Part shown: positions 9,374 through 25,876 of the stretch, in pieces
Position numbering within the stretch: position 1 is the stretch's first letter
How the letters are laid out: every line of letters begins with the position of its first letter
Assembly (NCBI GenBank): GCA_937923575.1
Contig: CALDUL010000028.1
Coordinates: 1-64,000 of the forward strand
DNA length: 64,000 nucleotides
Source of the DNA: an uncultured Algimonas sp.
GTDB lineage: Bacteria > Pseudomonadota > Alphaproteobacteria > Caulobacterales > Maricaulaceae
Reading direction: 5' to 3'
The notes under the pieces: model-generated
Told to the model about the DNA's origin: nothing
The model's database searches: none
Seen by the model: the letters and a program-made list of their open reading frames with translations, nothing else
Position numbers and translations under genes: made by a program

Positions 9374-9895
9374 ATGATCATGGACGAAAAACTAAAACTC
9401 TTCTGGGAGATCGGCGAAAAGATGCTCTCCGCCACGCCCCACGCGTCCGAGCTGGGCATGCGCTTTGTTGCCGTTGGCCCTGCGACCGCGACGCTGTCGC
9501 TGCCCTATGCCGATCAGCTGATAGGCGACACGGGCACAGGCGTCGTGCATGGCGGAGCCGTAACCACGCTGCTCGATCAGGCCTGCGGGCTCGCCGCCTT
9601 CACCGGGTTTGAAACCTTGGGCGCGCTCGCGACGCTGTCCTTGCGCATCGACTATCAGCGCGCGGCCAAGCCTGGCGAGACCATCATCGCCACGGCCGAA
9701 TGCTACAAGACGACCAAACACGTCGCCTTCCTGCGGGCGGTCGCCCATGACGGCAACGAATCCGATCCCGTCGCCACCGCGCAGGCCGCCTTTATGAGCA
9801 CGGGCCCGCGCATGTCCTTCGAGGATGCCATAGCGCAGAGACTGGCACGGAAGAACAAGGCCCAACAGGACAAGAAGACGGGAGACGCGGCATGA
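9374..9895 (+). CDS. PaaI-family hotdog thioesterase 1
   Basis: A 173-residue hotdog-fold protein. The segment GTGVVHGGAVTTLLDQACG is the PaaI/YbgC-like active-site region, where a Gly-rich HGG turn precedes the long helix and the acidic residue activates water. Members hydrolyse acyl-CoA thioesters. The substrate range cannot be read from the sequence. It is ten bases after the EstB-type gene and overlaps the next thioesterase by four bases, so co-translation is likely. The start may be either ATG of the MIMDEK beginning. Confidence 0.85.
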   Translation: MIMDEKLKLFWEIGEKMLSATPHASELGMRFVAVGPATATLSLPYADQLIGDTGTGVVHGGAVTTLLDQACGLAAFTGFETLGALATLSLRIDYQRAAKPGETIIATAECYKTTKHVAFLRAVAHDGNESDPVATAQAAFMSTGPRMSFEDAIAQRLARKNKAQQDKKTGDAA

Positions 9896-10317
9896 GCGAC
9901 ACTGACCTCCAGTCCCGCGTCGAGGCCATGCTGGCCGACATTCCCTATGCCCAGACACTCGGCGTCCGCCCGTCCTTCATGGGCGAGGAGTTCACGCTCG
10001 TGCTGCCCTTTGCCCAGTCCAATATCGGCAACGCCACCCTGCCCGCGCTGCACGGCGGCGGCATTGGCGGGCTGATGGAAACCTGCGCCATCGTCCAGCT
10101 CCTGCTCGCCAATCCCGGCCGGGCACTGCCCAAGCCGATCGGGATCAACATCGACTACCTCCGGCGCGGCAAGCCCGTGGACACCTTTGCCCGGGCGCAG
10201 ATCTTCAAGCAGGGTTCGCGGGTGGCGAATGTGCGCGTCCGGGCTTGGCAGGATCGGTTTGACACGCCGATCAGTGCGCTATCAGGCCAGTTCTTGCTGG
10301 GACGAACTTCCGACTAG
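9892..10317 (+). CDS. PaaI-family hotdog thioesterase 2
   Basis: A 141-residue hotdog-fold protein paralogous to the gene just upstream. The active-site segment reads LPALHGGGIGGLMETCAIVQ, with E in the place of the D of the first protein. The later ININ-like strand (IGINIDYLRRGKP) is a conserved hotdog feature. The two thioesterases may form a heteromer or act on different acyl-CoAs; this is inference. It is the last gene of the pdxY operon and is followed directly by the structured repeat copy at 10334. Confidence 0.85.
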   Translation: MSDTDLQSRVEAMLADIPYAQTLGVRPSFMGEEFTLVLPFAQSNIGNATLPALHGGGIGGLMETCAIVQLLLANPGRALPKPIGINIDYLRRGKPVDTFARAQIFKQGSRVANVRVRAWQDRFDTPISALSGQFLLGRTSD

Positions 10318-10333: not shown

Positions 10334-10469
10334 AACAGAAACACCCGCTCCGAAGGCGTAGCCGCAGGGGCTGTAGTGGTGTTTCTGTTAGCATCCGACG
10401 CAGGAGGACCGCGGCGCGAAGCGGCGACCCCGCCTTATGAGGCGGGACGAGCGCGTAGCGGTCGCGCTC
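10334..10469 (+). repeat. Structured 3'-UTR repeat element, copy A
   Basis: It starts 16 bases after the second thioesterase stop and lies on its coding strand. The outer stem is AACAGAAACACC (10334-10345) with GGTGTTTCTGTT (10378-10389), a perfect 12-bp pair. It encloses CGCTCC...GGGGCTGTAG with a small GGC/GCC hairpin. After it come TTAGCATCCGACGCAGGAGGACC, a CGGCGC/GCGGCG stem, CCGCC-TTATGA-GGCGG and GAGCGCG/CGCGCTC. Copies B and C keep the layout with different stem sequences. It is not coding in any convincing frame. Confidence 0.75.
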
Positions 10470-10551
10470 TCACATGACGGCTTCTATCTGCCCCAACGAT
10501 GATCGCCCTTCACCCTCAAGAGACAAAGCCACCCATCTCGCGAGCAACAAA
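10470..10551. other. Spacer between two inward-facing repeat copies
   Basis: Together with copies A and B this fills the 375-bp gap between convergent genes. No gene is visible. A 25-base stretch at 10501-10525 (ATCGCCCTTC..CCCTCAAG) matches the complement of 25745-25769 downstream of copy C at about 21 of 25 positions, so a second repeated motif may accompany the element. Confidence 0.5.
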
Positions 10552-10668
10552 AAAGCCGGGCGTTAGCCCGGCTTTCTGACGTTCGAGCTGCGCTCGACGG
10601 TCCTGACGGACGCTAACAGAAATACCACTACAGCCCCTTCGCTGCGCTACGGAGCGGGTATTTCTGTT
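10552..10668 (-). repeat. Structured 3'-UTR repeat element, copy B, ending in an intrinsic terminator
   Basis: Read on the minus strand, it lies just after the sapC-like stop. The outer stem AACAGAAATACC/GGTATTTCTGTT (10657-10668 with 10615-10626) is perfect. It encloses CGCTCCG...GGGGCTGTAG, and is followed by TTAGCGTCCGTCAGGACC, a TCGAGC/GCTCGA stem and AAAGCCGGGC-TAAC-GCCCGGCTTT. The last hairpin is followed by T residues on the minus strand, so it should work as a rho-independent terminator for the gene at 10693-11466. Confidence 0.75.
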
Positions 10669-10692: not shown

Positions 10693-11466
10693 TTAGGCCT
10701 GAGCGGCTTGGGCGTTCCGCAGCGTCATATTTACCAGACGCTGCCAGTTGCCCAGGCTCACCAGGTGAGCGTGTGCGACGGCGAGGAAGCCGCGGTCGTG
10801 CAGATCCTTGATCTTCTTGGCGGGCAGTTCGCGCATCTTGGCTTCGGAGATTGCGAAGTAGTCGGCGATCTTCTGCTGCGGGGCGGGTGTGCCGTCGGCG
10901 TTCTGTCCCTGGAAGTTCATTTCCTTGGCTTCGAACAGATCCAGCGTCTTGAACTCTTCGACCATGGCGGAGGTCGCCTGGCGGTCGCGCTCATAGGATT
11001 GCAGGAATTCGAACGCCTCGGTCGTGAAGGCCGATGTGTCGGAGCCATCGAAGAATTTCTGCTGCGGAGCCTTGTCCGTCACACATTCGGCGGCTTCATC
11101 GACGCAGACCACGAAACGGTCATTGGCCTGATCGCCGGCCAGAACGAAGGGATAGCGGCGCGCGAAGGACGGCATGTAGAAGTCCTGGGCGAATTGGCCT
11201 TCGGTCACGAAGAGGTTTTCCTTCTGGCGGATACCCATGACGGCAAGCGGCGTGCGCTCTTCGCCGGCGAAGATAATCGGGTAGGACGCGGCGGCTGCGC
11301 CGAATTCCGGAGCGGTCAGCGGCAGAAAGTGCTGGTCGGCCATGAATTCGAACGGCTTGTCCACGGCCTTCACGCCGTGCTTGGCGTGGGCTTCGCGGTT
11401 CAGCGGCACGGGCTTTTCATAGAACATGACATTGCCGGAAACGGAGATTGGATTTTCGTCAGCCAT
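10693..11466 (-). CDS. SapC family protein
   Basis: A 257-residue protein of the SapC family, first described beside S-layer genes in Campylobacter and common in Caulobacterales and Sphingomonadales. Family features visible are the early FEFMADQHFLPLTAPEFGAAA segment, the central FAGEERTPLAVMGI and RRYPFVLAG stretches, and a C-terminal DRGFLAVAHAHLVSLGNWQRL helix. No signal peptide is seen, and the molecular function is not established for the family. The ATG at 11466 is chosen over the longer frame because of a GGACGCCTC ribosome-binding region and the natural N-terminus MADENPISV. Its transcript would end in repeat copy B. Confidence 0.8.
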   Translation of the reverse strand: MADENPISVSGNVMFYEKPVPLNREAHAKHGVKAVDKPFEFMADQHFLPLTAPEFGAAAASYPIIFAGEERTPLAVMGIRQKENLFVTEGQFAQDFYMPSFARRYPFVLAGDQANDRFVVCVDEAAECVTDKAPQQKFFDGSDTSAFTTEAFEFLQSYERDRQATSAMVEEFKTLDLFEAKEMNFQGQNADGTPAPQQKIADYFAISEAKMRELPAKKIKDLHDRGFLAVAHAHLVSLGNWQRLVNMTLRNAQAAQA

Positions 11467-11558
11467 GAGGCGTCCTTTGTAATACTGTTCGGGGACGTCG
11501 ATAAAAGCGGGCAGACGCGTCCCCACGCGCACCCGCCTTATTGTGGCGAGCGCCATAA

Positions 11559-21854: not shown

Positions 21855-23978
21855 TCAGTGCGCGATCACGGCGAGCAGCAGCAGGGCGATGATGTTGGTG
21901 ATCTTGATCATCGGGTTCACGGCCGGACCCGCCGTGTCCTTATAGGGATCGCCGACCGTGTCGCCGGTGACAGAGGCCTTGTGAGCCTCACTGCCTTTGC
22001 CGCCGTGGTGGCCGTCCTCGATATATTTCTTGGCGTTATCCCACGCGCCGCCACCGGCGGTCATGGACAGAGCCAGGAAGAGGCCGGTCACGATCACGCC
22101 CATCAGCATAGCACCCAGCGCGGCCAGAGCCTCGCTGGTGCCCGCGATGAAATAGACCACGAAATAGGTCACGATCGGAGCGAAGATCGGCAGCAGGGAC
22201 GGCTTGATCATTTCCTTGATCGCCGCGCCCGTGAGCAGGTCGACAGCCTTGGCATAATCAGGGCGCGATGTGCCCGCCATGATACCGGGGTCCGAGCGGA
22301 ACTGACGCCGCACTTCCTCGACGATGGCCGTCGCTGCGCGTCCCACGGACTGCATGGCCCAGGCTCCGAAGAGATAGGGCAGCAAGCCGCCGACGAACAG
22401 GCCGACGATCACGTAAGGGTTGGTCAGGCTGAAATCGACGGAGACGCCGGACAGCGGATTGCCGGGCTTGCCGCTGAAATACAGGATGTCCTGATAATAG
22501 GCGGCGAAGAGCACCAGCGCGCCCAGACCGGCGGAGCCGATGGCATAGCCCTTGGTCACGGCCTTGGTGGTGTTGCCCACCGCGTCCAGCGTGTCGGTCG
22601 TGTTGCGCACTTCCGGATCCAGATTGGCCATCTCCGCGATGCCGCCCGCATTGTCGGTCACGGGACCGAAGGCGTCGAGCGCGACGATCATACCCGCCAC
22701 GCCCAGCATGGCGGTCACGGCGACGGCGATGCCGTAGAGCCCCGCGAGGCCGAACGTCACGATGATGCCGAAGACGATGATCAGCGCCGGAATGGCCGTC
22801 GCTTCCATCGACACGGCGAGACCCGCGATGACGTTGGTGCCGTGGCCGGACTCGGACGCGGCGGCAACGGAACGGACCGGACGGTATTTCGTGCCGGTAT
22901 AGTATTCCGTGATCATCACGATCAGCCCGGTGATGACGAGACCGACGACGGCGCACAGGAACAGGTCCATGCCGGTCGAGGTCACCGCCGTGCCATCCGC
23001 GAGGATGCGTCCGGCTTCGTCGACAGCGCCCATGCCGTTGTCCAGCACGAGGCTGGTCACGAGATAGATCGCCGCAACGGACAGCACGCCCGTCGCGATC
23101 AGGCCCTTGTAGAGCGCGCCCATGACATTGGTCGAACCCTTGCCGAGACGCACGAAGAAGGTGCCGATGATCGACGTCACGATGCAGGCTCCGCCAATGG
23201 CCATCGGGTAGAGGACGAGGTCGAGCGCGCCCGGGAACAGGATCGAGCCGAGGATCATGGTGGCCGCGATGGTCACGACATAGGTTTCGAACAGATCGGC
23301 CGCCATGCCCGCGCAGTCGCCGACATTGTCGCCGACATTGTCGGCGATCGTGGCCGGGTTGCGCGGATCGTCTTCGGGAATGCCCGCTTCGACCTTGCCG
23401 ACGAGATCGCCGCCGACATCCGCACCCTTGGTGAAAATGCCGCCGCCGAGACGTGCGAAGACCGAGATCAGCGAGGCGCCGAGCGAGAGGCTGACCAGCC
23501 CGTCGATCACGCCGCGCTCATCCGCACCCATCGGGCCCGTCAGGATCATGTAATAGACAGCGAGGCCCAGCAGGGCGAGGCCCGCGACGAGCATGCCGGT
23601 GATGGCGCCCGCCTTGAAAGCGACGTTGAGGCCCGCGCCGAGCGAGCTGCGCGAGGCTTCCGTCGTGCGCACATTGGCCTGCACCGATACCAGCATGCCG
23701 ATATAGCCGGCAATGCCCGACAAGACGGCGCCGATGACGAAGCCCACAGGCGCGATGGCGTTCTGGAACAGCAGGGCGAGAATGATCGCGACCGGCACGC
23801 CGACAATGGCGATGGCCTTGTACTGCTTGGCGAGATAGGCCTTTGCGCCTTCCTGGATGGCGCCGGCTATTTCGTTCATGCGCTCATTGCCGGTACTGGC
23901 TTTCATAAGGCTGGCACGGGCCCAGATACCGTAGAGGACAGCGAGCAAGGCCGCCCCGATGATAAGATAAAGTGTCAT
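21855..23978 (-). CDS. hppA: Membrane-bound proton-translocating pyrophosphatase, K+-independent type
   Basis: A 707-residue, multi-spanning (about 16 helices) V-type H+-PPase. It couples hydrolysis of pyrophosphate to proton export. The cytoplasmic active-site motifs are [20 protein letters not shown] and [20 protein letters not shown], with acidic residues that bind Mg-PPi, and a third near the C-terminus ([20 protein letters not shown]). In [10 protein letters not shown] the lysine stands at the position where K+-dependent enzymes have alanine, so a K+-independent proton pump is expected. It could energise the membrane and recycle biosynthetic PPi. It is convergent with the EF-hand gene. 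Confidence 0.95.
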
Positions 23979-24345: not shown

Positions 24346-25554
24346 ATGCGCCATTCGATTATCTCCCTGGCCCTTCTGTCAGCCATCCTGCCCGCCTGCG
24401 CGCTGGCTGGCACGGGCGACACCGAGACTGTGACCGGGACCAAGGGCACCACAGTTACCCTGACCGAGCTGGAGACCTTCGACGGGGCCTGGGCGATGAC
24501 CTTTCTGCCTGACGGTCGCGCGCTGGTAACCGAGCAAAGTGGCCGCCTCTGGCTGCTTGATCGCAACGGCGCCAAGGCTGGCGAGATCAAGGGCCTGCCC
24601 AAGGTCACCGAGCGCGGCCAGGGCGGGCTGGGCGACATCATCGTCGACCCGGATTTCACGCGCAATCGCCGCGTCTATCTCTCCTATGTCGAGCGCGACA
24701 AGGACGACAGCAAGCGCTCCGGCGCGGCGGTCGAAGTCGCGACGCTGAGCCTGTCGAATGCGGGCGGCGGACGACTGACGGGGCGCGAGGTCATCTGGCG
24801 GCAGTTTCCCAAGACGACCGGAAACGGTCACTATGGCCACCGCCTGGCCATCAGCCCTGACAATGCGGAAGGCGGCGGCGGCAAGCTGTTCATCACCTCG
24901 GGCGAGCGGCAGAAGTTCACGCCCAGCCAGAACATGGATATGAACCTCGGCAAGGTTGTGCGGCTTAACAAAGACGGTAGCATCCCGGACGACAATCCCT
25001 TTCACGGCCAAGGCGGGGTGACGGACGAGATCTGGACACTCGGCCACCGCAATCCGCTGGGCATCGACTTCGCGGCGGACGGCACGCTCTGGGTCCACGA
25101 GATGGGCCCGCGCCACGGCGATGAGCTAAATCGCATCGTGCGCTCCGAAAATTACGGCTACCCCGTCGTATCCAATGGCGACCATTACTCCGGCGTCGAA
25201 ATTCCTGACCACTCGACCAACCCTGTCTATGAGAATCCCGCTGCCTGGTGGGACCCCGCCATCAGCCCGGCCGGGTTCGTGATCTATGATGGCGACCTTT
25301 TCTCGGACTGGAGCGGCGACGGTTTCATCGGCGGGCTGAGCTCGCAGGCCTTGGTGCGCGTCGTGTTCGACAAGGACAAGATCGACAATGTCGGCGGCAG
25401 CCCGTCCAAGACCGACATGCGCGAGACGATCGCCACCGAAGCCGAGCGCTATGAGTGGGGCGCGCGTATCCGGGAAGTGGAACAGGGGCCGGATGGGGCG
25501 ATATATGTGCTGGAGGATGGTGAGGGCCGTCTCCTGAAACTCACGCCTGGGTAA
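24346..25554 (+). CDS. PQQ-dependent sugar dehydrogenase-like (soluble aldose dehydrogenase family) exported protein
   Basis: A 402-residue protein with a signal peptide (MRHSIISLALLSAILPACAL; LPAC could also be a lipobox). It is a six-bladed propeller of the Asd/YliI-like GDH-B family: GAWAMTFLPDGRALVTEQSG, GHYGHRLAISPD, GHRNPLGIDFAADG and WVHEMGPRHGDELNRI are the expected blade and PQQ-site motifs. It would oxidise sugars in the periplasm. No pqq synthesis gene is in the window. A GGAGCGTCCC region precedes the ATG. It is followed directly by repeat copy C. Confidence 0.85.
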   Translation: MRHSIISLALLSAILPACALAGTGDTETVTGTKGTTVTLTELETFDGAWAMTFLPDGRALVTEQSGRLWLLDRNGAKAGEIKGLPKVTERGQGGLGDIIVDPDFTRNRRVYLSYVERDKDDSKRSGAAVEVATLSLSNAGGGRLTGREVIWRQFPKTTGNGHYGHRLAISPDNAEGGGGKLFITSGERQKFTPSQNMDMNLGKVVRLNKDGSIPDDNPFHGQGGVTDEIWTLGHRNPLGIDFAADGTLWVHEMGPRHGDELNRIVRSENYGYPVVSNGDHYSGVEIPDHSTNPVYENPAAWWDPAISPAGFVIYDGDLFSDWSGDGFIGGLSSQALVRVVFDKDKIDNVGGSPSKTDMRETIATEAERYEWGARIREVEQGPDGAIYVLEDGEGRLLKLTPG

Positions 25555-25566
25555 CGCCCTTGAGAC

Positions 25567-25703
25567 AACGTTTTCACCCGCTCCGGAGCCGACGGCGTAG
25601 GGGCTGTAGCGGTTAAAACGTTAGCGTCCGACGCAAGGAGGACCCTCCAGCGACAGCTGGAACCCCGGCTTATGAGCCGGGAAGATCGCGCAGCGGTCGA
25701 ACT
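25567..25703 (+). repeat. Structured 3'-UTR repeat element, copy C
   Basis: It begins 12 bases after the sugar dehydrogenase stop and on its coding strand. The outer stem AACGTTTTCACC (25567-25578) with GGTTAAAACGTT (25611-25622) has one mismatch and differs from copies A and B in its central bases. It encloses CGCTCCGG..GGGGCTGTAG with a GCC/GGC hairpin, the reverse of copy A's GGC/GCC. Then follow TTAGCGTCCGACGCAAGGAG, a TCCAGC/GCTGGA stem and CCGGC-TTATGA-GCCGG. Confidence 0.75.
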
Positions 25704-25876
25704 CCGACATCTCGACCTACACAAGAATTAGAGACCATCGTCCCTCTCCCTTGAGGGAGAAGGGCGATGACGGGAAGCTCTGGAATATACCCAGTATTAG
25801 CTGCACCCGGCGCGCCACACCTCGGACCGCGCGCGGGGCTTCGCTGCAAAATGTCCCCCGGACATTTGTGCGGACG
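25704..25876. other. Non-coding spacer with two palindromes
   Basis: The rest of the 322-bp gap after the sugar dehydrogenase. CCCTTGAGGGAGAAGGG at about 25748-25764 is a loose palindrome that also resembles 10501-10525. AAATGTCC-CCC-GGACATTT (25849-25867) is a perfect 8-bp hairpin just past the thpR stop on the minus strand and may act as its terminator. No gene is visible. Confidence 0.5.

Follow-up and report, generated by a model that had tools for sequence, protein, structure and literature searches.

Among described bacterial repeats, the CIRs (Caulobacter CerM-associated intergenic repeats) are ~110-bp alphaproteobacterial sequences made of several hairpin arms and a linker (PMC2229807). 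ERIC/IRU elements are palindromic, intergenic, transcribed and about 100-150 bp long, and ERIC affects mRNA stability (PMC2229807). The REP, BIME and REPIN repeats are intergenic palindromes, often located behind genes, in inverted pairs and mosaic in structure, which is also true of the element described here, a repeat of some marine alphaproteobacteria that is present as copies A, B and C in the window (the whole stretch of 64,000 nts that was analysed). However, this element occurs in far fewer copies, is 60-145 nts long and has stems that vary freely. It shares with the CIRs an alphaproteobacterial, intergenic setting and several hairpin arms but, CIRs being compared by description only, differs in its five hairpins, its sense placement at gene ends and the swapping of its modules. 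In addition, CIRs carry a conserved GANTC in a hairpin loop, which was absent from 37 of 39 elements examined and found once in each of the other two. ERIC/IRU and MITE-like repeats are similar in size, palindromic and intergenic; unlike them, the element is oriented relative to gene ends and lacks a terminal inverted repeat of the whole element. Its 5′ end is AC-A[AG]C and its 3′ end CGGTCG, and only P1, at one end, is palindromic, which sets it apart from MITEs. Searches of Rfam 15 gave no match at the gathering score (the best at E<=1 had 20-24 bits, versus gathering scores of 50 and 218), hence the element is not a known Rfam family, and no description of the repeat was found in the literature searched, which mostly excluded subscription papers.

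Each copy can fold into P1, a bulged hairpin of 56-60 nts, and the three copies of the window, with their tails and upstream genes, are arranged as follows:

9892-10317, forward strand: gene upstream of copy A, hot-dog thioesterase/PaaI-like as read from its sequence, its TAG stop ending at 10317
10334-10389, forward strand: P1 (type a) of copy A, outer stem AACAGAAACACC/GGTGTTTCTGTT, inner stem GCTCC/GGGGC, bulge TGTA(G)T
10393-10409, forward strand: P2 of copy A, long form
10412-10427, forward strand: P3 of copy A, CGGCGC type
10429-10446, forward strand: P4 of copy A, CCCGCC TTATG GGCGGG type
10448-10464, forward strand: P5 of copy A; the tail-only covariance model R3 matches 10391-10464
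10548-10574, reverse strand: intrinsic terminator of sapC (AGCCGGGC TAAC GCCCGGCT TTTTTT), in place of P4-P5 of copy B
10581-10598, reverse strand: P3 of copy B, TCGAGC/GCTCGA
10600-10611, reverse strand: P2 of copy B, short form GTCCGTCAGGAC
10613-10668, reverse strand: P1 (type a) of copy B, AACAGAAATACC/GGTATTTCTGTT
10693-11556, reverse strand: sapC (PF07277), upstream of copy B
24346-25554, forward strand: glucose/sorbosone dehydrogenase (GSDH) family gene (PF07995), upstream of copy C
25567-25622, forward strand: P1 (type a) of copy C, AACGTTTTCACC/GGTTAAAACGTT, one mismatch
25624-25699, forward strand: tail P2-P5 of copy C, with P3 TCCAGC/GCTGGA

The three copies reported in the initial annotation are real, with correct sequences, coordinates and constant parts, and each starts, as it had stated, within ~25 bp of a stop codon and in the orientation of that gene. 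P1 of copy A starts 16 nts past the TAG of the thioesterase-like gene, which has no Pfam match at 1e-8, and the whole element reaches 10464. P1 of copy B starts ~24 nts past the TAA of sapC, and this copy retains P1-P3, the position of P4-P5 being occupied by the intrinsic terminator (AGCCGGGCTAACGCCCGGCTTTTTT). P1 of copy C starts 12 nts past the TAA of the GSDH-family gene. The outer stems were also quoted correctly, except that the stem of copy C was taken to be fully paired. The tail-to-tail arrangement of A and B arises because the two genes are convergent and each has a copy of its own. Many copies are accompanied by a second palindromic repeat (of the CGCCCTCTCCCT..AGGGAGAGGGCG type), positioned between the element tails or behind them, as at 10495-10535 and 25730-25770 in the window.

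In the genome of the window (G000; 2.58 Mb, 122 contigs, 85% complete) and in the sister MAG G011, both of them 'Hellea'-like, the full element consists of five successive hairpins, P1-P5, totalling 42 pairs. In P1 of type a, 12 pairs (A[AG]C-N6-ACC / GGT-N6-G[TC]T) form the outer stem, and the inner stem, GCTCC/GGGGC, includes a nearly invariant U-G pair. The bulge TGTA(G)T is one-sided and the apical loop is variable; four G011 copies carry a further hairpin of ~30 nts nested in this loop. Apical loops of both types of P1 were seen to contain the nested module (GCCGATCAAGTCGGCGGGTAAACTCCGCCG; L189:1550-2093, L188:262-349, L190:2501-2588, L332, L335 and L321). P1 is followed by AGC and then by P2 (GTCC/GGAC, with a short or a long loop), P3, of which there are five sequence types, P4, and P5, whose loops are often GNA or GNRA-like. 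A second type of P1, type b, precedes the same tail, and the constant flanks are AC-A[AG]C and G[TC]TAGCGTC. The element does not correspond to an intrinsic terminator, since P1 is followed by AGCGTCC and no U run. Furthermore, copies differ in the A/U polarity of their outer stem, which is reversed between A and C, and a separate terminator follows copy B.

Changes that preserve the stems, which the initial annotation had expected among further copies, were found in P1 of type a, in the tail hairpins and in P1 of type b. In 16 type a copies, 98.2% of the cells are paired (35-56% in the slid-alignment control) and 41 changes affect both sides of a pair, versus 11.5 after shuffling. A set of 58 distinct P1 rows, a few of them antisense matches, is 95.9% paired, with 146 both-side changes versus 34.9. 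For the full element, 22 distinct copies are 96.7% paired, and both-side changes occur in 17 pairs and 83 cells, versus 10.4 and 22.8 after shuffling. The outer stem of type b is 90.4% paired, with 14 both-side-changed cells versus 5.2. In the 16-, 58- and 22-copy sets, the observed covariation score was reached by none of 500 shuffles; these figures are not probabilities, because related copies are not independent, and the slide control, which keeps the relatedness, gave 28-62% paired across the three sets. In variable columns, G-U exceeds A-C by 21:10 and 22:11 (p ~0.04 each), a small excess in cells that are not independent. Together with the constant U-G, it is no more than suggestive of RNA rather than DNA, so that the helices may also be hairpins of DNA, and the U-G pair, the G-U excess and the GNA/GNRA-like loops of P5 point to the sense RNA strand. 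Hence the 'conserved RNA fold' of the initial annotation holds as far as the pairing is concerned, but the element is more mosaic and more mobile than the phrase suggests.

A covariance model built from 16 copies (R1) found 16 P1 copies in G000, with E-values from 4e-23 to 5e-10, and 17 copies in G011. In G000 the matches end in a clean gap between the weakest true copy (46 bits) and the next match (19.6 bits, antisense), and a chance origin of the P1 copies is excluded; the family found by the genome-wide covariance search, which the initial annotation had proposed, is larger than the three copies that it reported. A broader model (R2), run on 136 Robiginitomaculaceae genomes, detected P1 in 12 carriers from three genera, with 1-6 copies in each of the ten besides G000 and G011 and none in most of the family; the rest of the order gave a single weak match in 398 genomes. 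According to their named matches, G011 is 'Hellea sp. MAG-189' and other carriers are Algimonas, i.e., Robiginitomaculaceae. Because most congeners live without copies, the element is not essential. The tail model R3 matched 23 places in G000 and 21 in G011, and eleven further genomes gave no match; in G014, related P2-P3 are recognisable by eye despite the absence of an R3 match. About 10 of the R3 tails are preceded by P1 of type b where type a would stand. No blastn match indicated carriage by a plasmid or phage. A pattern scan of viral contigs returned 120 loose matches, which were dismissed as chance since none has GTTAGC.TCCG behind it, and pattern matches in Coriobacteriia and Synechococcaceae were also taken as chance.

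About 53 of the 63 P1 copies start at a gene end, or no more than about 35-60 nts past it, in sense orientation, and the ends concerned are those of protein genes, tRNA-Ser, tRNA-Leu and rnpB. In G000 and G011, 28 of the 33 type a copies follow a gene end in sense orientation, most of them 1-33 nts past the stop codon, which bears out the non-random placement and orientation anticipated in the initial annotation. For 42 of the 63 copies, an open frame of 70 codons or more ends alongside (a few of these frames running through a tRNA), versus 12.9% of random places for frames of at least 80 codons (P ~6e-23), and ~10 further copies lie behind tRNA, rnpB or contig-truncated gene ends. In many species, P1 directly adjoins the stop codon (-4 to +3 nts). 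Host genes confirmed by profiles include parE, hslV, msrA, aroC, infC, lepA, lptB, rho, sapC, GSDH, icd, ssb and the genes for H+-PPase, an S24 peptidase and a DUF937 protein, and the tRNA hosts are tRNA-Ser(CGA), tRNA-Ser(TGA) and tRNA-Leu(TAG, TAA); no functional theme unites the host genes. The exceptions are copies C61b, C16 and g259, with no gene in front, and copy C1 and a G014 pair, which lie antisense to xseA in its 5′ region. The two copies of this pair (L229:5217-5949, reverse strand) lie on the same strand, 670 bp apart and antisense to xseA, and G000 carries a single copy at the corresponding place.

Host sites are common to different species: infC (G011, G017), icd (G055, G017), lptB (G018, G017), hppA (G050, G052) and rnpB. 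The sites at tRNA-Ser CGA (G000, G013), tRNA-Leu TAG (G050, G053) and DUF937 (G005, G006) are also occupied in two genomes each. The H+-pyrophosphatase gene of the window (21855-23978, reverse strand) has no element; the orthologues of G050 and G052 carry one directly at the stop codon. Behind rnpB, P1 is present with different stems in G018, G050 and G055 and absent from seventeen other genomes read at the site, including the close relatives G051, G053 and G054. The rnpB site of G018 (L225:7256-7500) holds two tandem elements with different stems, each with a CGGAAAAGTGA...TTAGGGGACGA tail. That the same host genes recur across species and genera, and that the distribution is all-or-none, would fit an old, vertically inherited termination or processing signal at 3′ ends, all copies of which are lost together once a trans-acting factor is lost. 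We consider this quite improbable, because there are few copies per genome, because the rnpB sites of close relatives are empty and because a conventional terminator still stands behind copy B and several G011 copies.

Comparison of orthologous sites revealed a turnover of the element itself. In nine readable congeners, sapC is followed only by its terminator, ~25 nts past the stop and with no element, whereas in G000 P1-P3 lie between the stop and the terminator; the P1 at this site is of type a in G000 and of type b in G011. At eight sites orthologous between these two genomes, the flanks are 85-92% identical and the hairpin modules, even the P1 type, are swapped. The mean identity of the elements is 0.68 at the orthologous sites, a figure lowered by a nested insert and truncated copies, versus 0.73 between non-orthologous pairs, and that of P1 alone 0.76 versus 0.71. 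Since the gene flanks are alike but the elements resemble each other no more than unrelated copies do, sites persist and their occupants turn over. Whole hairpin modules are thus exchanged at conserved sites while pairing is kept. Empty sites exist in congeners, with flanks too diverged for base-exact junctions such as a target-site duplication.

Exchange of the P1 type at orthologous sites would also fit a single-stranded DNA site that folds and whose shape, as in an integron attC site, is recognised by a recombinase, the modules being cassettes exchanged at fixed gene ends. Like attC, the element keeps its structure with free sequence in the paired stems, has unequal bulges on one arm and constant flanks, and lies at the 3′ end of a gene in the orientation of that gene. 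However, its copies are scattered behind chromosomal genes, tRNAs and rnpB, and the attC boxes RYYYAAC ... GTTRRRY are replaced by CCACAAC and GTTAGCG or GCTAGCG. An integron-cassette arrangement was rejected in G014, where no clear gene lies between the two same-strand copies, and no gene cassettes in tandem array were observed. The G-U excess also favours RNA, and an attC-like site appears very unlikely.

Alternatively, the element could be a purely selfish mosaic repeat (MITE- or BIME-like), with module copying and quasipalindrome correction maintaining the palindromes and gene 3′ ends being the only harmless place for insertion. The patchy distribution, the modules swapped at fixed sites, the nested hairpin in apical loops, the further palindromes between paired copies and the recombinant copy C32, in which pairing is broken (AACGCAAG versus TCTAGGCT), all agree with this. 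Yet harmlessness leaves the sense orientation and the abutment to stop codons and to tRNA and rnpB ends unaccounted for, and palindrome correction would erase the bulge TGTA(G)T and the U-G pair, both of which survive the changes. A Y1 (PF01797) transposase or RAYT was found in none of 16 genomes with and without copies, several of them incomplete MAGs, control genomes being positive, and a REP/RAYT origin was therefore rejected. On balance, a purely selfish repeat is unlikely.

The interpretation of the initial annotation is supported, and the findings that it named as contrary did not appear. The best explanation, with about an even chance of being right, is a new dispersed family of CIR/BIME-like mosaic repeats in Robiginitomaculaceae, carried by sense 3′-tail transcripts, kept as RNA structure and probably acting as a 3′-end stabiliser. 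The element would be transcribed as the 3′ untranslated tail of its host gene, or as the trailer of a tRNA or rnpB, and its helices may be kept as RNA to protect or define the transcript 3′ end as a REP-like barrier to nucleases. This effect on stability is suggested by the position of the element and by what is known of REP and ERIC. The family may have arisen and spread as a non-autonomous mosaic repeat, its modules presumably shuffled by recombination between copies. Recombination moving both arms together could, however, keep the stems paired without selection at the RNA level. A dedicated system, unlike integrons, REPs and MITEs, that places and exchanges hairpin cassettes at gene 3′ ends, the cassettes being read by shape and folded in the transcript, is conceivable but quite improbable.

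Structured repeats of bacteria are usually treated as scattered debris. Here, two related genomes allow the precise sense placement behind stop codons, tRNA genes and the gene of RNase P RNA, the sharing of host genes across genera and the turnover of whole hairpins at fixed sites to be measured, and hence both the role of the element as a portable RNA element of 3′ ends and the cause of its placement at gene ends become testable.
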